64,000 nucleotides of DNA from Halomarina pelagica (GCF_024228315.1 NZ_CP100454.1:2294001-2358000); one strand, 5' to 3'; counted from the first letter of the stretch, positions 3,745 to 44,721 are shown. Translations and numbers: made by a program. Notes: generated by a model from the letters alone, not told the origin.

Positions 3745-4305
3745 ATGACGCTCCTCCAACTCCCCTCGGGATTGGAACTCTCCCTCCCCGTCCTGTTGTT
3801 GCTCGCGGGGACGGGTCTCATCGTCGCCGAGGCGCTCGCGCCTGGCGCGCACTTCATCGTCGTCGGCATCGCCCTGCTCGCCGCGGGCCTCGTCGGCCTG
3901 GTCGTCGGCGGCGGGGCGCTCGGCATCTTCCTCATGATGCTGTCGGTGTTGCTCGTCGGGGGACTCGCGTTCTACGCCTACCGCGAGTTCGACCTCTACG
4001 GCGGGAAGGGCCGCAGTCGGACGAGCGACTCGTCGTCGCTCCGGGGGAAGACCGGGCAGGTCACCGAGCGGGTGACGACCGCCGGCGGGCAGGTGAAACT
4101 CGACGGCGGGGGGTTCAACCCCTACTACGCCGCGCGGTCGATGGAGGGGGAGATCCCCGAGGGGACCGAGGTGATGGTGATCGACCCCGGCGGGGGGAAC
4201 GTCGTCGTCGTCGAACCGCTGTCGCTCATCGAGGACGCCATCGATAGAGAACTGCGCGAGGGACGGGCGCACGAGACCGACCGCGACGAACCCGAAACCG
4301 TTTGA
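3745..4305 (+). CDS. NfeD family membrane protein
   Basis: The 186-aa protein has hydrophobic segments at about residues 14-30, 36-55 and 58-80, then a C-terminal soluble NfeD OB-fold domain (about 98-158, with GKTGQV and EGTEVMVIDP). NfeD proteins are partners of SPFH/stomatin proteins and help organise membrane microdomains. This is the short form without the ClpP-like protease domain. Its expected SPFH partner is on the same strand at 6428, but an AT-rich segment of about 2 kb with reverse-strand genes now separates them. Confidence 0.85.
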   Translation: MTLLQLPSGLELSLPVLLLLAGTGLIVAEALAPGAHFIVVGIALLAAGLVGLVVGGGALGIFLMMLSVLLVGGLAFYAYREFDLYGGKGRSRTSDSSSLRGKTGQVTERVTTAGGQVKLDGGGFNPYYAARSMEGEIPEGTEVMVIDPGGGNVVVVEPLSLIEDAIDRELREGRAHETDRDEPETV

Positions 4306-4488
4306 TTCGGATACGGCGGTCGCGTTTATTCGTTCGCTCTTGTGTAGTACATTGTTGATGTAGAGCTGTCTTGCGATTCTGTAGTGAATCGAGCGAGACT
4401 AAAACCAGATCGTTAGGCAGTCAGGCGGTCAGTTTTTGTTCCTGTTCTACCGTAGAGAGCTGTATCAACAATCTCCTACGGAAGAGCG

Positions 4489-4860
4489 TTATTCGTTTAG
4501 TCGCTCGAACGTGATTTCACCGTTCGTGACTCGAACAGCGAGCGGGGAGACGGCGTCATTCCATTCGTAGGTATCACTGGGTCCATTCTGAACAGTCACT
4601 TCCACCAAATTATCCGTGTGCATGAGAACTTTGTTGTTAACTGTTTGTTCCTCATTTGGAGATAGCGACATTGTTTCTTCAACAATGATGTCGCTGTCAT
4701 CTATAGAGGTCACTGCAATTGTCACCGTGATTTCATCGGTTGTTTCATTCGAGATGTCGATATCGGTCGCGCCTCGAGAAGAGGAGAGGCAGCCAGCACC
4801 GCTTATCCCGAAAACGGATATACTGCCAGCGCGGAGGACCGTTCGGCGGGAATAGGCCAT
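4489..4860 (-). CDS. Tat-exported putative lipoprotein of unknown function
   Basis: The 123-aa product begins MAYSRRTVLRAG, a twin-arginine signal, followed by a hydrophobic stretch and a lipobox (GAGC) at about residues 22-25. The mature protein is a small, Thr/Ser-rich, beta-type domain with no family I recognise. Two in-frame ATGs lie upstream (4878, 4869). The ATG at 4860 is preferred because an A/T-rich TATA-like box (4884-4894) sits about 27 nt away, fitting leaderless transcription. Codon usage is markedly AT-richer than the surroundings. Confidence 0.65.
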   Translation of the reverse strand: MAYSRRTVLRAGSISVFGISGAGCLSSSRGATDIDISNETTDEITVTIAVTSIDDSDIIVEETMSLSPNEEQTVNNKVLMHTDNLVEVTVQNGPSDTYEWNDAVSPLAVRVTNGEITFERLNE

Positions 4861-4963
4861 GAGATTCATAGATGCCATCTCAGTAAATATTTTTTGCTGC
4901 CAATGTTTTCTTGCTTTGTATTGATTACGAAATAGTGGTGGTGAAGAGATAGATGAAATGTGT

Positions 4964-6223
4964 CTATGAGGTCGTTACTTTTGTGTAGGAACAGGCAGTC
5001 CAACTCCCCCACGTAAGATAGTGTGATTGGCTGTCGTAGGTGTCATAGAGTTCGAACACTTCTCCGCCCTCACGATATCCAATGACGGTAGTTGTATGGT
5101 TCCCATACGGGTTGCTGCGGTCTTGCGCCGTTCCGCCGTTCGTCATATTGAGAAGGAACGGACGATTATTGATGCTGATCTCTGCCAGCGTAAAGTCCGG
5201 ATGATTCCACGCATAGATGTTAGACCCGTTATAGTTTTTCGTTCCCCAGATGTAATTGTCGAACCCATCATCGATCTTCCAAGGATCGGTTGCCCCTTCT
5301 GAATCATTGTCAGTATCCATTGTGATATGGAGTTGGTCAATGATGGATTCACGTGCGTCTGCATCTCCTTCACTGACGCCTTCGTGAAATCCGATGATCA
5401 TCGATCCAGCGATAGGACTGCAGCCGTCCCATCGGCCCCAGGTATCTGGACCCGTTCCCACATATGTCCGGCTAGCGTTGCCCTTGTCGGTTTCTGTCTA
5501 AGCTGGAACTCCATAGATCGTGTCTGAGTCACTGCCACCTGGGTTGATGATATCGGTGGGAGAGATGCTGTCGGTGGAGCCTGAGTGATCAGTATTGTCC
5601 TCGGAACTGGTTAGTGTTCTCCATTCATCTATTACATGATCATTATCAAATGACATTGCTACCGGCGAGATGCCATTCCCGACGGTTTGGGGCTGTTTGT
5701 TACGAAGATTCATTGCTTTCCCCTCCGCGAGTTCGAGACCGTACTTCACGCCACCGTGATATAGGAGATTTCCGCTTACTGTGAATCCCTGCTGTTGGGC
5801 GACGTTGCGCGTTGATTGAACCAATGCATTGGGAGGTGTAGCCCTACTATATTCGAGAATCGGGGCCCAATCTGATCGGGCAGCGGCCGTGACGTAACCG
5901 ACAAATTCGTTGCTCTTCTTAAGAGGAAAGACATACGCACTTGAGATGTACTTAGGACCCTTTCCAGCATTCTTCATGACGAATGTAGTCGATTTTCCTA
6001 CTGTTGCACCCTCCCATGACGCGAAACGAGGATCAGCCACAAGTTCACGGACCTTTGTCCGGACTGCCTGCTTCGCAGTTCCCTTCCTAACTCTATCTTC
6101 GTGACTACGTGAGTTCAAGCCAGAGGCTCCGAGTGCGAGGCCAGAGGCTGTACTGGCGAGCCCAGTTGTTCCGATAGCTTTGAGAACGCTACGACGATTA
6201 AGCTGGAGACCTTTGATTGGTAT
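4964..6223 (-). pseudogene. Tat-secreted C39-like cysteine peptidase, broken by an in-frame amber and lost start codon
   Basis: One minus-strand frame carries a Tat signal (codons for NRRSVLKAIG, Arg-Arg at 6191-6196), then a domain of about 200 aa, an in-frame TAG at 5498-5500, and after it the rest of a papain-fold/C39-like domain. That rest has a WDGC catalytic-Cys motif near 5422, NHTTTVIGY (His) and YDTYD. All catalytic residues lie beyond the stop. No ATG/GTG/TTG lies between the upstream TGA (6239-6241) and the Tat motif. The codon at 6223-6221 is ATA, positioned about 25 nt after a TATA box, so the start was probably ATG. Parts usable as separate frames are 5498-6118 (TTG) and 4964-5461 (GTG). 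Readthrough is an alternative but less likely. Confidence 0.65.
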
Positions 6224-34856: not shown

Positions 34857-34945
34857 ATCGTATCTCAACCTCGAGTACCTCATCTAACACCCCTCGCGAC
34901 CGGTGGCCGAAGGTTCAAGTACCGGAACGGGACCACTCCGCCTCG

Positions 34946-35425
34946 ATGGCAGACGACACGCTCTCCGCGCGAATCGACGCGCTCGAACGCGCCCTCACCG
35001 ACGGTCGCGCGCTCCCCGACCTGGCCGACGAGGCGCGGGTCGCGACCCGCCTGACCGAGATCGAAGACCGGGTCGACGAGCTGGACGACCGGATCGCCGA
35101 CTTGGACGCCGCGGTGCAGGCGCTTCGCGGCTACGTCGGCGAGGTCAGGCGCGTCGATCGGGCGGTCGAGCGGCGCGCGGACGCCGCCATCGCCGCCGTC
35201 GAATCGCTCGAGGGGACGATCGCGGCGGCCGACCTCCCCAGCGAGGGGCGACGGGACGCCCCGGACGAGGCAGACGGCTCCGCCGCTCCGTCCGAATCTG
35301 CCCCCGGCCCCCGAACGAGACTCACCGACGGCCCGGAGACGGACGTCGCCGGTACCCCCACCGACGGCGAACGAGAGGCGGACGAGGTCGACGGGGCGCT
35401 CGCCCGCCTCCGGAACGCCCTGTAG
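34946..35425 (+). CDS. Coiled-coil protein heading the pilus-like operon (DUF7310-like)
   Basis: The 159-aa soluble protein begins MADDTLSARIDALERAL. A long heptad-type region (about residues 30-95, VDELDDRIADLDAAVQALRGYV) is followed by an acidic Ser/Ala/Pro-rich tail. It resembles what I recall as DUF7310 in haloarchaea. It starts the tightly packed operon; the next start codon overlaps its stop by one base (TAGTG). A structural or regulatory role in the machine is inferred. Confidence 0.72.
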   Translation: MADDTLSARIDALERALTDGRALPDLADEARVATRLTEIEDRVDELDDRIADLDAAVQALRGYVGEVRRVDRAVERRADAAIAAVESLEGTIAAADLPSEGRRDAPDEADGSAAPSESAPGPRTRLTDGPETDVAGTPTDGEREADEVDGALARLRNAL

Positions 35426-35862
35426 TGCTCCGCGTCGTCCTCGCGGTCCTGCTGGCCGTCGCGCTCGTGGGCGCGTCCCTCCCCGCCGTCGAACGCGCGC
35501 GCGTCGCGTCGAGCGACGCGGCTGTCGAGCGGGAGGCCACCGCGCTCGCGACCGCGGTCGAGCGAGCGTGCGCGGACAGCGACCCCGTCACCCCGGGCGG
35601 GCCCGGCGCGCGTCGCGTCGTCACCCTCGCGCTCCCCGCTCGCTCGTGGGGTCACGCCGGCGTCGAGCGGGTTCGCGTCACCCCGCGTGGCGTCCGCTGG
35701 CGGGTTCGCGGCGGCGCGCGACACCGTCTCCGGTTCGACGGACCGGCCGCACTCGACCGCCCGATCGAACTGCGCGGAGCGGGCCGCCACCGCCTCCGCG
35801 TCGCCTGCGAGCGCCGCGCCGGCCGCGCGGTCGCCGTCGTCCGTCGCGGCACAGGTTTATGA
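35425..35862 (+). CDS. Short N-terminally anchored protein in pilus-like operon (DUF7311-like)
   Basis: The 145-aa protein starts at GTG 35425. An N-terminal hydrophobic helix (LRVVLAVLLAVALVGASL, residues 2-19) is followed by ERARVASSDAAVEREATALATAVERA, a helix like that of TadE or pseudopilin proteins, and then a small Arg-rich beta-type domain. It has no obvious prepilin peptidase site. Its placement directly before the secretion ATPase suggests a minor pilin-like or assembly role. Confidence 0.7.
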   Translation: MLRVVLAVLLAVALVGASLPAVERARVASSDAAVEREATALATAVERACADSDPVTPGGPGARRVVTLALPARSWGHAGVERVRVTPRGVRWRVRGGARHRLRFDGPAALDRPIELRGAGRHRLRVACERRAGRAVAVVRRGTGL

Positions 35863-35886
35863 ACGAGAACGTCACCAGCCCTGCCC

Positions 35887-37791
35887 ATGTCCCGGTTCCC
35901 GTTCGGCCTCCTCGATCGCGGGTCGCCACCCGCCTGCGCCTGCCGCCCGCGCGCGGACGGCGACCGCCTCGTCGTCGACGCGACCGACTGCGACGGCGGC
36001 GGCGTCGTGGAGCGCAGCCCCGACTGCCGCGAGACGGTCGTCGACGCGCTCGCCCGTCGCGACGCCGAGGTCGTGCTCGTCCGCGCCGCGGGCGTCGAGC
36101 GGTCCTACGAGGGGGACGCGGCGGCGTTCCTCGTCGCCGCGGGTCGGTTCGTCGAGGCGGCCGCCCACCGCGACGAGACGCTCGCGGCGCGCGCCCGCCG
36201 CGATCCGCTCCTCGCCGCCAGACAGGCGACCGGCCGCGCGGGGGCGCTCGCCCGCATCGCCGCGGAGACGGGGCTCGCGGAGGGCGCGGCCCGGGCCGAG
36301 GGGTACGAGGACGCTCTCCGCCCGCGCGTCGGGCCGACGGTCGCCCGCGCTCGAATCGCCGTCCGTCCGCCGTCGGACGCGCGCCTCGTCGAGCGGACTG
36401 ACCTCGACACGGGCGCGGTCGTCCGGGTGTACGAGCGCCCGGGGGACGAACTCCGGCTCTACCACCTCGTTCCGATCGAGCACACGTTCGACGATGCCGC
36501 GCTCGCCGCGCTCGCCGCCGCCTACGAGCGGTTGGCGGAGGGGGACGCGACCGGCGACCGCGCCGCGGGGCGCGCCGTCCGGGCGGTCGCGGACGCGAGC
36601 GGGGACACGGACGTGCCCGTCGAGCGCCTCGTCGCGGTGCTCGAGAAGCACACCGCCGGCGCGGGCGTGCTCGACGACCTCTTCGCCGACCCCGGCTGCT
36701 CCGACGTGTTCGTGACGGCCCCCGCCGACGCCGCCCCCCTGCGCGTCCGCCGGGGCGACGAGACGCTCCGGACGAACGTCCGGCTGACAGAGCGCGGCGT
36801 CGAGACGCTCGCCTCGCGCTTCCGGCGGACGAGCGGCCGGGCGTTCTCGCGGGCGAGTCCGACCCTGGACGCGGCGACGACGGCGGGCGGTCGCCGCGTC
36901 CGCGTCGCCGGCGTCACCGATCCCGCGAGCGACGGCGTCGGGTTCGCCTTCCGCGCCCACGACGTCGAGGCGTGGACGCTCCCGGCGCTCGCGGCGAACG
37001 GCACGCTCCCCGCGGACGCGGCGGCGCTCTGCTCGCTCGCCGTCGAGCGCGACGCCGCCTGCCTCGTCACCGGCGGTCGTGCGTCGGGGAAGACGACGCT
37101 CCTCTCCGCGCTCTGCTGGGAACTCCCTGCCGCCGTCCGCGTCGTCGCGATTGAGGACACGCCCGAACTCCCCGTCGCCGCCCTGCGCGAGCGCGGGCGG
37201 GACGTCCAGCGCCTCCGCGCCGACGCGGACGCGGACGGATTCTCCCCCGAGGAGGCGGTCAGAACCGCGCTTCGGCTGGGAGACGGCGCGCTCGTCGTCG
37301 GCGAGGTACGCGGCGCGGAGGCGGGCGCACTGTTCGAGGCGATGCGCGTCGGCGCGAACGACAGCGCCGTCCTCGGCACGATCCACGGCGACGGCGGGGC
37401 GAGCGTCCGCGAGCGCCTCGTCTCCGACCTCGGCGTCCCCGAACGCGCCCTGGGGGCGACCGACCTCCTCGTCACCTGTGCGCTGACGCCGAGGGGTCGT
37501 CGCGTCGCGTCGGTCGAGGAGGTCCACGCCGTCGAGTCGGGGGTCGGATTCGCGCCGCTGTTCGAACGCGACGGCGACGGACTCGCCGCCACGGGTCGCC
37601 TGGAGCGCGGCGAGAGCCGCCTGCTCGCCGGACTCGCCCGCCCCGGCGAGTCGTACGCCGATCTCCGAGCGGCCCTCGACGCGCGGAAAGCGTGGTTCGA
37701 CGAACTGGTCGCCGCCGACCTGACCGACGCCGCGTCCGTCGTGAGCGAGCACGCCCGCCGTCGCGGACGGGACCGACCGGGTGACCGATGA
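35887..37791 (+). CDS. VirB11/PilT-type secretion ATPase of a pilus-like system
   Basis: The 634-aa cytoplasmic ATPase powers type IV pilus-like assembly. The N-terminal 250 residues are family-specific and Arg/Ala-rich. From about 260 come a LFADPGCSDVFV-type N2 domain, Walker A around 396-403 (GGRASGKT, Lys 402), an Asp-box region IEDTPELPV, Walker B GALVVGEVRG, and a His box GTIHGDGG. A TATA-like AGGTTTATG lies near 35855, so it may also have its own promoter. Its stop overlaps the next start (ATGA). Confidence 0.88.
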   Translation: MSRFPFGLLDRGSPPACACRPRADGDRLVVDATDCDGGGVVERSPDCRETVVDALARRDAEVVLVRAAGVERSYEGDAAAFLVAAGRFVEAAAHRDETLAARARRDPLLAARQATGRAGALARIAAETGLAEGAARAEGYEDALRPRVGPTVARARIAVRPPSDARLVERTDLDTGAVVRVYERPGDELRLYHLVPIEHTFDDAALAALAAAYERLAEGDATGDRAAGRAVRAVADASGDTDVPVERLVAVLEKHTAGAGVLDDLFADPGCSDVFVTAPADAAPLRVRRGDETLRTNVRLTERGVETLASRFRRTSGRAFSRASPTLDAATTAGGRRVRVAGVTDPASDGVGFAFRAHDVEAWTLPALAANGTLPADAAALCSLAVERDAACLVTGGRASGKTTLLSALCWELPAAVRVVAIEDTPELPVAALRERGRDVQRLRADADADGFSPEEAVRTALRLGDGALVVGEVRGAEAGALFEAMRVGANDSAVLGTIHGDGGASVRERLVSDLGVPERALGATDLLVTCALTPRGRRVASVEEVHAVESGVGFAPLFERDGDGLAATGRLERGESRLLAGLARPGESYADLRAALDARKAWFDELVAADLTDAASVVSEHARRRGRDRPGDR

Positions 37792-39545
37792 CGCCGCGCC
37801 GAACGCGTCCGCGCGACGGTGGCAGAGGGGATCGGCCGACGATCCGCCGCTTTGCCCGCGGCGCGCCGCCGTCCCTCGCCGGCGTCCCGCGGGATCGCTA
37901 CGAGCGCGCACTCCGGTTCCTCTCACCAACCCTTTCCGTGGAGACCGTCGCCGCCGCGAGCGTCGTCGCGGCGCTCGCGGCCGCCCTCGGTGTCGTCGTG
38001 GTGGGGCTCGCCGTCGCGCCCGGCCTCGGTACGGCCCTCGTCCCCGCGGCGGTCGCGATGGGGTTCCTCGTCGCGGTCGCCGCGTGCCGACTCCCCCCCT
38101 GGGCCGCCCGCGTCCGTCGCACGGCGGCGCTCGGGGCCGCGCCCGACCTCGTCAGCCGCGCCGTGCTGCGGATGCGCCTGACGCCGACCCCCGAGACGGC
38201 CGCGGCGTTCGCCGCCCGAACCGGGCGCGGCCCGCTCGCCGACAGCCTCCGCCGCCACGTCGAGCGGGCCGCCGGGACGCCCGCCTCGGGGCTCGGGTCG
38301 TTCGGGGAGCGGTGGCGGGAGGCGTACCCGGCGCTACGCCGCGCCGCGCTCCTCGTCGAGGCGGCGGGGGCCGCGCCCGCCGGGGAGCGCGAGCGGACGC
38401 TCGACCGGGCCGCCCGTGCCGTCCTCGACGGGACCCGCGAGCGGATGACCGAGGCGACCGCGGACCTCTCCGGCCCCGTCTCCGTGATCTACGCGTTCGG
38501 TGTCTTCCTCCCGCTCGCGCTGGTCGCCGTCCTCCCCGCCGGCCGCGCCGCGGGCGTTCGCGTGACGCTCCCGCTGGTCGTCGCCCTGTACGACGCGCTC
38601 CTCCCCGCGCTGTTGCTCGCCGCCGCCGTCGGCGTGCTCGCGCGCCGCCCGGTCACGTTTCCCGCCCCCACGATCTCGCGGACGCACCCCGACGTTCCCG
38701 ATCGACGGCGGGGTGCGACGGTCGCGCTCGGGGCCGGCATCGCGGCGGGCGGTGCCGCCGGCGCGTTCGTCGTCCTGACTCTCCCCGGCTGGACGCTCCC
38801 GCTCGCCGTCGCCGGGGTCGGCGTCGGCGCTGCTCTCCTCGCGTGGTACCGACCGGTGGTCGCCGTCCGCCGGCGGGTTCGGGCCATCGAGGACGGCCTG
38901 GCCGACGCGCTCTACCTCGTCGGCCGGCGCGTCGAGGAGGGGCGGTCCGTCGAGCGGAGCGTCGAACTCGCGGCCGACGAGGTGACGGGCGAGATGGGTG
39001 CCGTTCTGGAGGCGGCCGCCGCGCGACAGCGACGGCTCCGAGTCGGCGTCGGCGAGGCGTTCCTCGGCGAGCACGGCGCGCTCGCGGCCGTCCCCAGCCC
39101 CCGCGTGCGGAGCACCGCCGACCTGCTCGCGATCGCCGCGCGCGAGGGTCGCCCGGCTGGGGCGGCCGTCGTCGCGATGGCGGACCACGTCGAGGAACTC
39201 CTGTCCGTCGAGCGGCGGTCGCGCCGCGACCTGAAGCGGGTGACGACCACGCTCTCGAACACCGCGGCGGCGTTCGGGCCGCTGGTCGCGGGGGTCACGG
39301 TCGCGCTCGCCGACGCGATCGGCGGCCGCTCGCTCGCGGGCGACTCCGTACCCCTCCCGACGGGCGGCCTCGGCCTCGCCGTCGGGGCGTACGTCCTCCT
39401 GCTCGCCGCGCTCCTGACCGCCCTCGCTGCGGGTCTCGACCGCGGGTTCGACCGCGCCGTCGTCGGCTACCGCGTCGGCGCGGCGCTCCCCGCGGCCACG
39501 GCGGTCTACCTCGTCGCGTTCGCGGGAGCGCGACTGCTCGCGTAG
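37788..39545 (+). CDS. TadC/GspF-like membrane platform protein
   Basis: The 585-aa integral membrane protein has two T2SSF-like halves, each with a cytoplasmic helical part and hydrophobic segments (about residues 50-95, 220-290, 320-360 and 500-580). The second domain includes LADALYLVGRRVEEGRSVERSVELAADEV, typical of the archaeal pilus/archaellum platform (PilC/FlaJ/TadC group). The 4-bp overlap with the ATPase gene marks the core ATPase-platform pair. Function: inner platform that couples ATPase motion to pilin extrusion. Confidence 0.87.
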   Translation: MTPRRTRPRDGGRGDRPTIRRFARGAPPSLAGVPRDRYERALRFLSPTLSVETVAAASVVAALAAALGVVVVGLAVAPGLGTALVPAAVAMGFLVAVAACRLPPWAARVRRTAALGAAPDLVSRAVLRMRLTPTPETAAAFAARTGRGPLADSLRRHVERAAGTPASGLGSFGERWREAYPALRRAALLVEAAGAAPAGERERTLDRAARAVLDGTRERMTEATADLSGPVSVIYAFGVFLPLALVAVLPAGRAAGVRVTLPLVVALYDALLPALLLAAAVGVLARRPVTFPAPTISRTHPDVPDRRRGATVALGAGIAAGGAAGAFVVLTLPGWTLPLAVAGVGVGAALLAWYRPVVAVRRRVRAIEDGLADALYLVGRRVEEGRSVERSVELAADEVTGEMGAVLEAAAARQRRLRVGVGEAFLGEHGALAAVPSPRVRSTADLLAIAAREGRPAGAAVVAMADHVEELLSVERRSRRDLKRVTTTLSNTAAAFGPLVAGVTVALADAIGGRSLAGDSVPLPTGGLGLAVGAYVLLLAALLTALAAGLDRGFDRAVVGYRVGAALPAATAVYLVAFAGARLLA

Positions 39546-39587
39546 CACCGGCGTAAGTTCATATACCGGGAGGGGACCAGCGTCCCC

Positions 39588-40058
39588 ATGTTCGACGTCC
39601 CGCTCGATTCAATCGCCGCGTGGGTCGGCCTCGCGTTCGTCAGCGTCGCCCTCGTCGGCGTGGCGCTCGCCCTCCCGACCGCGACGCCGCCCGACGCGGC
39701 GGCGGCCGCCGACACGATCGACGCGGTCGCCGCGAGCCCGCACGCGGCGGCCGCCGACTACCCCCTCCACGGGGCGACTGTCCGTCTCGACCCCCGACGC
39801 CTCACGCTCACCCGCGGTGGCGCGAGCGCGCACGCGACGTTCGCCTACGGCCCTGTCACGCCAGTTCGGCCGGGGTCGCGTCTCGGTCTGGTGCTCGCCG
39901 GACGACCGCCGACCGCCGTCTTCAGGTCCCCCGGGGCGCTGGCCCGGGCGACGGCGGCGGCCCGCGAGCGCGCGCCGGTCGTCCGGAGCGCCGCCGACCG
40001 ACTGCTCGTCAGACACGTCCGCTGGAGGGGTGTCGATGTCACGCTCGTCGGCGCGTAG
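39588..40058 (+). CDS. Membrane-anchored accessory protein 1 of the pilus-like system (DUF7283-like)
   Basis: The 156-aa protein has one N-terminal helix (about residues 11-31, AWVGLAFVSVALVGVALALP) followed by an Ala-rich helix and a small globular domain (LTLTRGGASAHATFAYGPVTPV). A TATA-like TTCATATACC (39558-39567) sits about 26 nt upstream, so this gene may start a second transcript. It probably sits on the outside of the membrane, as a pseudopilin or assembly component; this is inference. Confidence 0.68.
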   Translation: MFDVPLDSIAAWVGLAFVSVALVGVALALPTATPPDAAAAADTIDAVAASPHAAAADYPLHGATVRLDPRRLTLTRGGASAHATFAYGPVTPVRPGSRLGLVLAGRPPTAVFRSPGALARATAAARERAPVVRSAADRLLVRHVRWRGVDVTLVGA

Positions 40059-40431
40059 GGCGCAGGTTGAGCCGGTAGCGGCGCTGCTTGCGGTCGTCGT
40101 CCTCTGTCTCGCCGTGAGCCTCTACGCGGGCGTCGTCACCGATTTCGTCGCCACCGACTCGAACGCCGACGGGACGACGGCGATCGCCGCCGACCGGGCG
40201 GTCGCGCTCGTCGCGCCGGCGGGCGTCGCGACGCCCGCCGATCTCCCGGCCGCGGTCGACGCCGCGCCGGCGGGGTACCGGCTCAACGCCACGCTCGACG
40301 CCGGCGGTGAGCGCTGGCATCTCGGCCCGGCCGCCCCACCGACGGCACCGCGCGCGACCCGCCCGGTGAGCGTCCGCCTCGCGCCCGGCCGGGTCGTCCC
40401 CGGAACGCTCGCGGTGGTGGTGTGGTCGTGA
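40036..40431 (+). CDS. Prepilin-like small protein 1 (DUF7285-like)
   Basis: The 131-aa protein starts within the end of the previous gene (23-bp overlap). Its N-terminus reads MSRSSARRA then QVEPVAALLAVVVLCLAVSL, with a charged leader, Ala/Gln junction and hydrophobic helix as in archaeal class III prepilins (cleavage expected between A9 and Q10). A short soluble domain follows. It is a candidate pilin or pseudopilin of this operon. A GTG at 40030 is an alternative start. Confidence 0.68.
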   Translation: MSRSSARRAQVEPVAALLAVVVLCLAVSLYAGVVTDFVATDSNADGTTAIAADRAVALVAPAGVATPADLPAAVDAAPAGYRLNATLDAGGERWHLGPAAPPTAPRATRPVSVRLAPGRVVPGTLAVVVWS

Positions 40432-41261
40432 GCGCGCGCGGCCAGAGCACGGTCGTGGACGTCGCGCTCGCGCTCGTCGTCGTCTCCGCCGCGGTCGGCC
40501 TCCTCACGGTCCCGTCGCCCGCTCCGACGGCAGACGGGACGGCCGACGAGACCATCGCGGCGCTCCAGACGACCACCGTGACCGTCACCACCGAGGACGG
40601 AGATCGGACGCTCCACGGGACGCCCGCGCAGCTGCTCGCCCGCGCGACGCTCGACCGGGTTCGGTTCGACGGGACCGCGATCGGCCGCACCGACTCGGCC
40701 GACCGTCGCACCGTCGAGAGAGCCGTCGCCCGAGTCACCCGCCACCGCGCGGCGCGCGCGCAGGTGATCGCCCGGTGGGAGCCGTACCCCGGCGCGTCCG
40801 TCGCCGGCCGGGTCGCCGTCGGTGGGACGCCTCCCGCCTCGGCGACCGTCGACGCGGCGGTGACCACGCTCCCGGCACCGCTCCCCCTCGGCGCGGTCCC
40901 CCCGACGCGCGCGGCGGCCGGGTACGACGCCCTCGGGAGCGCGGCGGCGGAGTCGGTCGTCGCCGCCGTCGCGCCGCCGTCGCTGTGCCGACGCGCCCGT
41001 TTCGACGCTCGCGCCCGAACTCGACTCGTCCGGCGGTACCGCCGGCTCGATCGGGCGCTCGGCGGGCGGACCGTCGCTCCCCCGGCGGAGGCGGGACGTC
41101 TCGCGTCGACGGACCTGACCGCGACACGCGAGCGTCTCCGACGGGCGCTCGCGGCGCGGTTCGCGGACGACCTCCGGGAGCGGTTCGCGTCGCCCGACCG
41201 CGCGGCGCGATCGATGGCGGCCGGGGAGGTTCAGATCGTGGTTCGGACGTGGTCGCCGTGA
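40428..41261 (+). CDS. Prepilin-like protein 2 (DUF7284-like)
   Basis: The 277-aa protein starts MSARG then QSTVVDVALALVVVSAAVGL, a textbook prepilin-like N-terminus with Gly/Gln junction and hydrophobic helix. A larger soluble Thr/Arg/Ala-rich domain follows. The GTG at 40428 overlaps the upstream stop (GTGA). It is a likely substrate of a prepilin peptidase encoded elsewhere in the genome, as none is in this operon. Confidence 0.68.
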   Translation: MSARGQSTVVDVALALVVVSAAVGLLTVPSPAPTADGTADETIAALQTTTVTVTTEDGDRTLHGTPAQLLARATLDRVRFDGTAIGRTDSADRRTVERAVARVTRHRAARAQVIARWEPYPGASVAGRVAVGGTPPASATVDAAVTTLPAPLPLGAVPPTRAAAGYDALGSAAAESVVAAVAPPSLCRRARFDARARTRLVRRYRRLDRALGGRTVAPPAEAGRLASTDLTATRERLRRALAARFADDLRERFASPDRAARSMAAGEVQIVVRTWSP

Positions 41262-44242
41262 GGCTAGCGGACGACCGCCGCGGTCGCGTCCCGTTCGCGC
41301 TCGTGGCCGTCCTCCTGCTCGTCGGGAGCGCGGCCGTCGTCGCTACCGACCGACCGCGTCGCTACGAGACGCCCGCGGTCGACCGGGTCGTGGGGGAGAC
41401 GGTGGCAGCCGCGCAGACGGCGCTCAGGCAGGCCGCCGTCGTCGCCGCGCGCGAGTCGGCCGCGAATCCGGTGGTCGCTCCGGTCGATACGCCCTACGGG
41501 CGGGTCGTCAACGACTCGTCGCCGTTCCGCGACGCCCTCCGGATCCGCGCGTCCCTCCTCGCCCGTTCGTACCTCTCCCGGATCGGGGAGCGACGCGGCG
41601 ACGTCGTCTCCTCGGTCTCCCTCCCGCCCGTTCGGTCGCCCGCCGACCTCCGCGCGGCGAAACGCCGCGTCAGCGTCGAGCGCGCCGGGCCGAACGGGAC
41701 GGCCCTCCGAGTCCGGTTCCGGGGCGTGACGGTGCGGGCGAAGCGCGACGGCCGGGTGATCGCGGAGCGGCGCGTCTCGCCCGTCGTCACCGTCGCCTCG
41801 CCCGCGCTCGCGCTCCACGATCGGGTGGCGGCGTTCGAGCGGGCGCTGAACGCGGGACCGCTCGACGGCGGGCTCGGCCGGCGGCTCGCGATCCAGCTGT
41901 ACGCGCTGGCCTGGGCGCGCGGCTACGCCCAGTACGCGGGCGCGCCCGTCGAGAACGTCGTCGCTAACCGCCACGTCGAGGTGGCGACGAACGCGGGGGC
42001 GCTCGCCGTCCAGCGGGAGACCCTCGGCGCGACCGCGTCCGGCGGTGAGCGCGCCGTCCTCGGCGCGGCGGCGCGGGTGGCGGCGACCGACCTCCTCGCC
42101 GCGAGCGGCGTCGACGCGCGCTGGACCGACGCCGTGGTGGCCGCCGTCCGGGGGGCGTCTTCGTCCACCGGGGCTCACCGGCCGGTTCGGAGCGACGGTC
42201 ACGAGGGGCCGGAGCCGGTGTCCGTTCGGGTGAACCACACCGCGGACCGGGCGCTCGTGGACGTGCTCGGAACGCGCGAGGCGTCGAGGCTCTCGACCGC
42301 CGTCGATCGCGGGTACTCGGTCGACGCGCGGCTGTTCGTCCGCGCGAGGCGAACCGGCGGTTCGACGACGGGGGCGACGGGGGCGACGGGAACGACGGCG
42401 ATCGATCCTGGCGGCAACTGGACGCTGGTCGACCGTCGCCGGAGAACGAGCCGTCGCGTCCTCCCCGGCGGCGGTTCCGCCCCGGTCCGCGTCCCGACGG
42501 GCTGGCGGGCGTTCGAGCGGTACGACCGCCGGGTGGTCGTGACGCACACGACCGTCTCCCGCTGGCGGCGCGGGGCAGCGCGGCGCGTGACGCGCCGCAC
42601 CCGGACCGAGCGCCACGCCGTCTCGATCGCGCTGGCCGGGCGGCACTCCCCCGACTCCCGCGCGCCCCGGGTCGGCGTCGCCGGCGTCTACGAGCGCGGC
42701 GGGCCGCTCGACGGGCCGAACCTCGCCGGCGTTCCCGCCGCGGCCCGCCGCCGTCTCGTCGCCTCGCGCGGCGGTCCCGACGCGCTCGCCCGCCGGGCCG
42801 TGCGCGGTACGCTCGACCGCGAACCGGTCCGACTCGCTGGCGCGCGCCCCGACGGTCTCCGGGCGTGGCTCCGACGCGACCTGGTCGCGCTCCACCGGCG
42901 CGTCCGGTCGACGGCCGTCGCGCTCCCCCGCGGGGCGGTCGCGACCTACGGGGTGAATCCGTCCACCCGCCTCGCGGCGCGCCTCCGTGTGCGGCGCGCC
43001 GAACTGCTGGACGCGCCGACCCGGTACGCGGGGGTCGCCGACAAGGTGCGCGTCGCCGTCCGCCGGGCGTACCTCGATCGGGTCCTCGCCCGCCTCGACG
43101 AGCGCGCGGCGGCGCGCGACCGAACCCGTGGCAACCTGAACGAGGCGCTCGACGGGACGGGCATCGGGTCGCTCGACCGCCTCCGCGCCGTGCGAGCCGT
43201 CGGAGGCGGCCCGTCCCCGGTCGAGCGTCCGCCGCCGGATCGAGGGCTCGGCGGCCCGCTCGCGCTGGCGGTCGAGACCGAGCCGGCGTACCTGCGCCTC
43301 GATCCGGTGGCCCGCGAGCGTCTCGGCGTCGCCGGGCGCGGGACGGTGACGCCGCTCGACGCGCGCAACACGAACCTGTTCACACTCCCGTACGGCGACG
43401 CGGCCGACGCCGTGACGCGCGGTCTCCTCGGCTCGGAGCGCGTCTCGCTTCGCACCGCCGCGCTGATCCTCCGCGCCGAGCGACGGGCGACCGGCGGTCG
43501 TGGGGATCGGGACCTCCGGCGGGCGGTGTCGGCGTCGACCGACCGCGTCCGCGACCGGATGGCGACCGTCCTCGCGGCGGCCGGGGTCGGGGTGACCGAC
43601 GAGACGCCCGGGGCGGTCGTCGACCGGGGACTGTCGCGCTGGCGGACGCCCGCCGGTCGCGCGCTCGCCGTGACGAACGGCTCGGCGATCCGAGCCGTCG
43701 TCGCCGTGACGCCGGGCGTCTCCGACGCGGAGCGCGCGGCGCTCGCCGCCCGCCTCGAGGTCGCAGTCTCGGAGACGCTCGCCTCGCCGTCCGCCCGGCC
43801 GCCGGAGACGGCGGTCGCCGGATCGGTGGGCGTCGTCAGGGCCGCCGTCCGCGAAGGGGCGACGCGGGCGGCGGAGTACGGCGTCAACCGGACGCTCTCG
43901 CGGTTCAACCGCACGTTCGATGCGATCTTCGTCGGCCTGCCCGTCGCGCCCGTCCCCGGCTACTGGTACGCCACGCTCAACGTCTGGGACGTCCACGCTC
44001 GCGGTACCTACGAGCGGCTGGTGGTGCGCTCCCGTCGCGGCGCGAGCGGCGTCGCGTACGTCCGCGACGGGGGCCTCGTCCGACTCGACGTCGACGGTGA
44101 CGGCGCACGCGAGCGCCTCGGCCGGGCCGAACGGGTGGCCTTCGAGACGCGCGTTCCCGTGGCGGTCGTCGTCCCGCCCGGCCGTCGCGGCGTCGGCGAC
44201 CTGGACGGCGACGCCGACGAGCGCTCGCCGGGGTACGGGTGA
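41258..44242 (+). CDS. Giant N-terminally anchored surface protein of the pilus-like system (DUF7286-like)
   Basis: The 994-aa protein starts MRLADDRRG then RVPFALVAVLLLVGSAAVVA, again a basic leader, Gly and hydrophobic helix, though Arg replaces Gln at the junction. The remaining 960 residues are extracellular-type, Arg/Ala/Thr-rich, with helices (GETVAAAQTALRQAAVVAARE) and a C-terminal domain ending in GYWYATLNVWDVHARGTYE and LVRLDVDGDGARERLG. GTG 41258 overlaps the preceding stop (GTGA). It may be a tip adhesin or a very large pseudopilin. Confidence 0.7.
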   Translation: MRLADDRRGRVPFALVAVLLLVGSAAVVATDRPRRYETPAVDRVVGETVAAAQTALRQAAVVAARESAANPVVAPVDTPYGRVVNDSSPFRDALRIRASLLARSYLSRIGERRGDVVSSVSLPPVRSPADLRAAKRRVSVERAGPNGTALRVRFRGVTVRAKRDGRVIAERRVSPVVTVASPALALHDRVAAFERALNAGPLDGGLGRRLAIQLYALAWARGYAQYAGAPVENVVANRHVEVATNAGALAVQRETLGATASGGERAVLGAAARVAATDLLAASGVDARWTDAVVAAVRGASSSTGAHRPVRSDGHEGPEPVSVRVNHTADRALVDVLGTREASRLSTAVDRGYSVDARLFVRARRTGGSTTGATGATGTTAIDPGGNWTLVDRRRRTSRRVLPGGGSAPVRVPTGWRAFERYDRRVVVTHTTVSRWRRGAARRVTRRTRTERHAVSIALAGRHSPDSRAPRVGVAGVYERGGPLDGPNLAGVPAAARRRLVASRGGPDALARRAVRGTLDREPVRLAGARPDGLRAWLRRDLVALHRRVRSTAVALPRGAVATYGVNPSTRLAARLRVRRAELLDAPTRYAGVADKVRVAVRRAYLDRVLARLDERAAARDRTRGNLNEALDGTGIGSLDRLRAVRAVGGGPSPVERPPPDRGLGGPLALAVETEPAYLRLDPVARERLGVAGRGTVTPLDARNTNLFTLPYGDAADAVTRGLLGSERVSLRTAALILRAERRATGGRGDRDLRRAVSASTDRVRDRMATVLAAAGVGVTDETPGAVVDRGLSRWRTPAGRALAVTNGSAIRAVVAVTPGVSDAERAALAARLEVAVSETLASPSARPPETAVAGSVGVVRAAVREGATRAAEYGVNRTLSRFNRTFDAIFVGLPVAPVPGYWYATLNVWDVHARGTYERLVVRSRRGASGVAYVRDGGLVRLDVDGDGARERLGRAERVAFETRVPVAVVVPPGRRGVGDLDGDADERSPGYG

Positions 44243-44292
44243 GCGGACGCGCGGACGTGAACGCACTTATGCCGCGCCGGCGAAGGGGGAGC

Positions 44293-44721
44293 ATGCTCCA
44301 GAACGTCGCTGACGACCCCGGTGCGCTCACGCCGGAGGAGTTGCGCGCCCGCTACGACGACAGCCTTCGAGAGACCGTCGAGGCGGTCGGCGCGGCCGAG
44401 ATCGCGCGGGAGGCGGGCGTCCCCCGCGAGGCGGTCGACGCGCTCGCCGCGGGGGAATCGCCCGACCTCACGCTGGAGGAGGCGGCGGCCATCCTCGCCG
44501 TCCCGGCGGACGCGCCCGACGCCGACGCCATCCGCGTGGAGGTGCTCGACGACCTCATGATGGGGATGTCGATCGCCGTCCTCGACGTCGAGACGCTGGA
44601 GAGCGAACTCGACGGGAAGCTTGAGGCCAAGGAGATCCAGCAGAAGATCGAGGGGCGCTTCCCGATGACGCTCTCGGAACTCGCGCTGCTCCAGCAGGCC
44701 ATCGAGGGGCGCAAGCCGTGA
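44293..44721 (+). CDS. DUF5791-like small soluble protein
   Basis: The 142-aa protein begins MLQNVADDPGALTPEEL and has a HTH-like helical pair (EIAREAGVPREAVDALAAGES) and a C-terminal EGRFPMTLSELALLQQAIEGRKP. I associate it with DUF5791. ATG 44293 is preferred over 44239 because an AT-rich CACTTATG box near 44264 lies about 27 nt before it. Its function is unknown. It follows the pilus-like operon by 50 bp. Confidence 0.75.
   Translation: MLQNVADDPGALTPEELRARYDDSLRETVEAVGAAEIAREAGVPREAVDALAAGESPDLTLEEAAAILAVPADAPDADAIRVEVLDDLMMGMSIAVLDVETLESELDGKLEAKEIQQKIEGRFPMTLSELALLQQAIEGRKP

Follow-up and report, generated by a model that had tools for sequence, protein, structure and literature searches.

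The locus considered here raises the question of whether an assembly ATPase, its membrane platform and a group of N-anchored membrane proteins, one of them 994 residues long, form a single machine, and if so a machine of what kind. It occupies positions 34946-44242, on the + strand, of a 64,000-nucleotide stretch of the Halomarina pelagica genome, referred to here as the window. The locus is one instance of a pilus-building type of machine that is widespread in haloarchaea and has been described before. Judging from the sequence, it may make a short filament, an adhesive pilus or a secretion pseudopilus. We favour, with a probability of roughly 60%, a dedicated archaeal type IV filament machine of the pil-2 or clade 4F type, with the giant protein at its tip or surface. 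The kind of machine is already known; some of its anatomy is new, and the subunits that set it apart can now be named.

All eight open reading frames given in the preliminary description are present. Six of the products belong to existing Pfam DUFs (DUF7310, DUF7311, DUF7283, DUF7285, DUF7284 and DUF7286) and one to T2SSE. Gene 1 (34946..35425) encodes a coiled-coil cytoplasmic protein of 159 aa (DUF7310; PF23991, 96.3 bits), and gene 2 (35425..35862) a short, leaderless, N-anchored protein (DUF7311; PF23993, 125 bits), whose GTG start at 35425 shares 1 bp with the stop of gene 1. The ATPase (gene 3, 35887..37791, 634 aa) and the platform (gene 4, 37788..39545, 585 aa) follow, and then the leaderless, N-anchored DUF7283 protein (gene 5, 39588..40058, 156 aa; PF23954, 161.7 bits) and three prepilin-like proteins: DUF7285 (gene 6, 40036..40431, 131 aa; PF23956, 105.5 bits), DUF7284 (gene 7, 40422..41261, 279 aa; PF23955, 195.1 bits) and the giant DUF7286 (gene 8, 41258..44242, 994 aa; PF23957, 1019.8 bits). 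The DUF7286 model match spans residues 5-993 of the giant, which is 78% identical to its counterpart in Halomarina halobia. The remaining overlaps are of 4 bp (genes 3/4 and 7/8), 10 bp (6/7) and 23 bp (5/6), and two intergenic gaps, of 24 and 42 nt, precede the ATPase gene and gene 5, respectively. Since the products match family models and dozens of haloarchaeal loci show the same gene order, the locus is more than a chance assembly of genes.

The Walker A motif placed at residue 396 of the ATPase is indeed found there (GGRASGKT), followed by VGEVRG and TIHG. The protein matches PF00437 (E=2.6e-18), its nearest NCBIfam family is the TadA-type TIGR03819 (E=9e-37), and its closest solved chains are 2OAP, CpaF and FlaI; together with the Walker A motif, the two family matches identify it as the VirB11/TadA-type ATPase of an archaeal type IV filament system. 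Its N-terminal part carries four Cys residues in 51/51 haloarchaeal orthologues, three of which are shared by 7/7 methanogen-type sequences. The platform of such a system is also present: gene 4 encodes a hydrophobic, multi-span protein of the TadC/T2SSF type that is paired with the ATPase throughout and adjoins it in every complete locus, though it matches PF00482 only weakly (18 bits, under the cut-off).

TATA-like boxes stand on the + strand before gene 1 (TTCAAGTA, 34914..34921, at a position conserved in other loci), gene 3 (TTTATGAA, 35856..35863, at the same position in 5/34 loci) and gene 5 (TTCATATA, 39558..39565, found at -29 to -31 in 23/68 loci). Compared across loci, boxes lying at about -29 to -32 relative to the start codon, the distance expected for leaderless archaeal transcripts, precede the genes for DUF7310 (21/45 loci, 19 of them at that distance), the ATPase (5/34) and DUF7283 (23/68); the other genes rarely have one (0 to 3 loci per gene), the background being 0.6% per scanned window. 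These boxes suggest that the locus probably consists of up to three transcription units. RT-PCR in pil-2 of Halobacterium has nonetheless shown co-transcription from pilB2 onward (PMC4292770). The locus had been called self-contained; the term is too strong, because boxes precede genes 1, 3 and 5 and because the motor and subunit modules lie far apart in 7/105 genomes.

Joint inheritance was surveyed in 145 genomes drawn evenly from the class, of which 111 carry DUF7286, 105 the cognate ATPase and 106 DUF7284. DUF7286 is present in 105/105 genomes with the cognate ATPase, within 8 kb of it in 98 and apart from it in 7; a Fisher value for this co-occurrence was set aside, as it treats related genomes as independent. 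Gene order was compared in 65 named loci found via DUF7286 and in 25 further loci, and the arrangement DUF7310-DUF7311-ATPase-TadC-DUF7283-DUF7285-DUF7284-DUF7286-(DUF5791) returns with little variation. A dedicated ATPase/platform pair and a fixed group of membrane proteins, the 994-aa protein included, are thus inherited together, and at the genome level DUF7286 homologues do not regularly occur without the pair. Six genomes have a DUF7286 match and no cognate ATPase. The matches are only partial in four of them (G012, G056, G067 and G125) and split over two contigs in the fifth (G121); the sixth, G045, appears to be a real exception, having DUF7284, a full-length DUF7286 and distant ATPases only. 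Two congeneric genomes (G012 and G067) bear deletion scars, at which the head of the locus is joined to the C-terminal part of DUF7286 and nearly the whole gene set has been taken out. Most of the sampled haloarchaea have kept the machine or lost it nearly whole.

In Halovenus and Halopiger the cognate ATPase lies elsewhere in the same genome. That the modules can lie so far apart would suit a reading in which the motor locus is just a neighbour of the anchored proteins, which themselves form a plain membrane complex. We consider this very improbable, given that separated motor and pilin modules are still kept and lost together. Two diverged copies of the pilin-like set occur in four genomes (G058, G077, G116 and G141), two of which (G077 and G116) have a single cognate ATPase above threshold. 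The locus also seems to decay repeatedly: two genomes (L034 and L064) have an interrupted cognate ATPase, the DUF7286 gene of another locus (L011) has an in-frame TAG, and pilB2 of Hbt. salinarum NRC-1 is likewise interrupted (PMC4292770).

The N-termini on which three proteins had been called prepilin-like are RA|QVEP in gene 6, RG|QSTVVD in gene 7 and RG|RVPF in gene 8, with predicted cleavage at A9|Q10, G7|Q8 and G9|R10, respectively, and a strongly hydrophobic stretch after each. The signal is conserved in DUF7285, where [RK][AG]| stands ahead of a conserved xx[ESTPD][PASG] in 94/99 orthologues, and in DUF7286, which has R at -2 in 85/88 orthologues, G or A at -1 in 87/88, and P at +3 invariant in a 55-sequence alignment. 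For DUF7284 the description holds in part. A short leader ending in R[AG]| before [IVTQM]STVxD is found in about two thirds of loci, a fraction that includes manual reading of loci left unclassified by script, and in the remaining third (Halorubrum, Haloplanus and others) the start codon lies directly ahead of TSTVLD. As this leaderless start coincides with the predicted mature N-terminus, it hints independently that the site has been predicted correctly. DUF7311 and DUF7283 start at their anchor in haloarchaea, without a leader, and the genes in their places in three methanogen-type loci carry a G before the conserved stretch.

Leaderless DUF7311, DUF7283 and many DUF7284 proteins are again compatible with a plain membrane complex; the -2 and -1 residues, which rank among the most conserved of the DUF7286 family, argue against it and for the filament machine. 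By sequence motif, class III prepilin signals are present on the subunits, and DUF7285, DUF7284 and DUF7286 would be cleaved there. As the preliminary description noted, the locus encodes no prepilin peptidase. The sole peptidase A24 match of the genome lies about 243 kb away (G000:C1:2085794), and this enzyme would be supplied in trans.

The giant DUF7286 is itself probably a prepilin, an assignment that is new here. Its AlphaFold2 model (mean pLDDT 79.8, pTM 0.49) combines a helix at the N-terminus with long helices and several beta regions, the mutual arrangement of which is uncertain; DUF7284 is modelled with a pLDDT of 86.4. Fold searches of both against the PDB returned nothing at E<=0.001 and no pilin-like fold, and no homology was found between DUF7286 and DUF7284. 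Weak ribosomal and SecB-like fold matches were rejected, as was a phage fibre that was the sole match of a DUF7286 profile search against PDB sequences (E=0.11). In the filament machine that we favour, the ATPase and platform would draw a constant group of N-anchored subunits out of the membrane to build a pseudopilus or short filament. With 131 aa, DUF7285 would be the most pilin-sized subunit, and DUF7284 and DUF7286 would be pilin-type stems bearing large outward domains. The giant would probably sit at the tip or surface, presenting its conserved C-terminal domain, and may act there in contact with surfaces or surface proteins.

Among known systems, the locus very probably corresponds to pil-2 of Halobacterium (Losensky et al. 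2015) and to a clade 4F system (Makarova et al. 2016), and is not a new device. Losensky et al. described pil-2 of Hbt. salinarum as PilB2, PilC2 and three FlaFind prepilins in seven co-transcribed genes, restricted to haloarchaea by nucleotide search and with weak similarity to actinobacteria (PMC4292770). Both loci (pilB2-pilC2, OE1347R-OE1332R in Hbt. salinarum) have an ATPase, a platform and then several genes including three predicted prepilins, as one haloarchaeal locus type, and the actinobacterial similarity has a parallel in the TIGR03819 match of the window ATPase. PilB2 is reported at 28%/48% to FlaI, close to the 30% over about half its length with which the window-type ATPase of a Halobacteriaceae-like genus matches the FlaI-like ATPase of that genus; it is from the published description and this FlaI-like similarity, rather than from the OE sequences, that we infer identity with pil-2. 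Unlike the present locus, which measures about 8.4 kb from gene 3, pil-2 was reported as 6.9 kb; its giant was not called a prepilin, and genes 1 and 2 were not mentioned as part of it. Clade 4F is described as having a Cys-rich ATPase N-terminus, a haloarchaeal coiled-coil component and an S-layer-like partner (PMC4858521). The present system shares the Cys-rich N-terminal region, the coiled-coil component in haloarchaea and the occurrence in methanogens, with clade placement made by pairwise comparisons rather than a tree. The pil-2/4F naming is provisional, since Legerme and Pohlschroder placed PilB1 and PilB2 of H. volcanii in clade 4C (PMC6491452).

Another reading is a long adhesive pilus made mainly of PilA-type pilins encoded elsewhere, in which the in-locus proteins would serve as minor pilins, priming assembly and capping the tip. 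Stand-alone PilA-family major pilins have been proposed for clade 4F (PMC4858521), PilB-C pairs can use in-trans pilins in Haloferax (PMC6491452), and pilB2 / pil-2 is induced in adherent cells (PMC4292770). We regard this reading as quite unlikely, as no in-trans pilin genes are tied to the locus here and the pilus observed in H. salinarum requires pilB1. Visible pili were in fact lost in a pilB1 deletion although pil-2 remained, which also counts against the filament machine favoured here, but pilC2 has an internal stop in that organism, making the function of pil-2 there doubtful (PMC4292770).

Likeness to other assembly systems is partial. The Sulfolobus bindosome (Bas) also has an ATPase and platform accompanied by a few proteins that resemble class III prepilins, and a match to the BasE model was found for the present locus (E=4e-13); its subunit families are different, and the window locus has no sugar-binding proteins. 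With the bacterial Tad system the locus shares a TadA-like ATPase and a TadC-like platform, and the use of small and large anchored pseudopilins resembles that of TadE/F/G. It differs in having no Flp pilin, no secretin and no outer membrane; neither an Flp pilin nor a secretin was found among the products of the locus or of its two neighbours.

The system also has relatives outside haloarchaea. DUF7286 relatives of about 970-1400 aa are found in other lineages of the phylum, and Methanosarcina acetivorans, among the control genomes, is DUF7286-positive. Three loci of one family (L096-L098), suspected to be from Methanocella relatives, have the order DUF7311-like protein (hhalign 94%), second anchored protein, DUF7285, DUF7284 and DUF7286. 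Homology of the second gene to DUF7283 was rejected, as the two have no detectable similarity and share only their place in the order. Seven methanogen-type genomes encode a related ATPase and TadC that adjoin each other, away from the subunit genes; the pilin-like set and a related motor thus extend beyond haloarchaea. In 9/10 methanogen-type loci the giant, or its C-terminal piece, is immediately followed by a gene of the sarcinarray family; the tenth locus is cut by a contig end. At L104:3-4381, three C-terminal pieces of DUF7286 are interleaved with three genes of the sarcinarray family, a pattern that would fit joint duplication of the pair. Sarcinarray proteins are tabulated among S-layer-type proteins (PMC5244752), and none was found in 59 haloarchaeal genomes. 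The occurrence of DUF7286 relatives in methanogens is new here, as is the consistent pairing of these relatives with sarcinarray surface proteins, which points to a physical or functional partnership, a hypothesis made concrete in organisms with genetics (Methanosarcina, Haloferax).

Secreted proteins encoded beside the giant in methanogens also fit a type II-like secretion device, in which a prepilin-like piston would push specific proteins through the S-layer without a stable fibre. We treat this as a serious rival, if a rather unlikely one. Each subunit is present in a single copy, the locus contains no obvious abundant major pilin, and no pil-2 pili are visible in H. salinarum (PMC4292770), all of which would agree with a piston; the sarcinarray proteins, however, carry their own signal peptides, and in haloarchaea no substrate gene is linked to the locus. 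The type IV filament machine is favoured because of the conserved gene order, the 105/105 co-occurrence of ATPase and DUF7286, the deletion scars, the R-[G/A] motif, the leaderless DUF7284 start, the A24 peptidase in trans, the methanogen subunits with their related motor, and the sarcinarray linkage. Besides the pilB1 result, we count against it the -2 residue of DUF7286, which is not always basic in methanogens, the unusual Arg at +1, the want of a pilin-like fold match, and G045.

A more specific version is put forward tentatively: DUF7286 might be a true prepilin that caps a short pseudopilus and, via its C-terminal domain, holds or positions partner surface proteins, sarcinarray in methanogens and another partner in haloarchaea, as a surface-display machine common to both and distinct from adhesive pili and archaella. 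If so, archaeal type IV filament motors would also build short surface-display complexes, not only long pili.

Some further features of the region were considered. A DUF5791 gene (window 44239-44721) overlaps gene 8 at its stop codon (4 bp) and is the next gene in most loci; it was rejected as a ninth component because it is retained where the machine is deleted (L111 and L112), and is probably an independent neighbour. The pI exceeds 11 in five of the six membrane proteins here (8.0 in DUF7285), which is unusually basic for a haloarchaeon, but basicity was dropped as a functional clue since orthologue pI varies widely (DUF7286 median 6.5, minimum 4.05). Finally, window positions 36001-44000, which cover the locus, form a G+C peak (77-78.5% vs about 70%) that does not hold across orthologues, and positions 4001-6000 have a low G+C (0.516) in a window otherwise at 64-78%.
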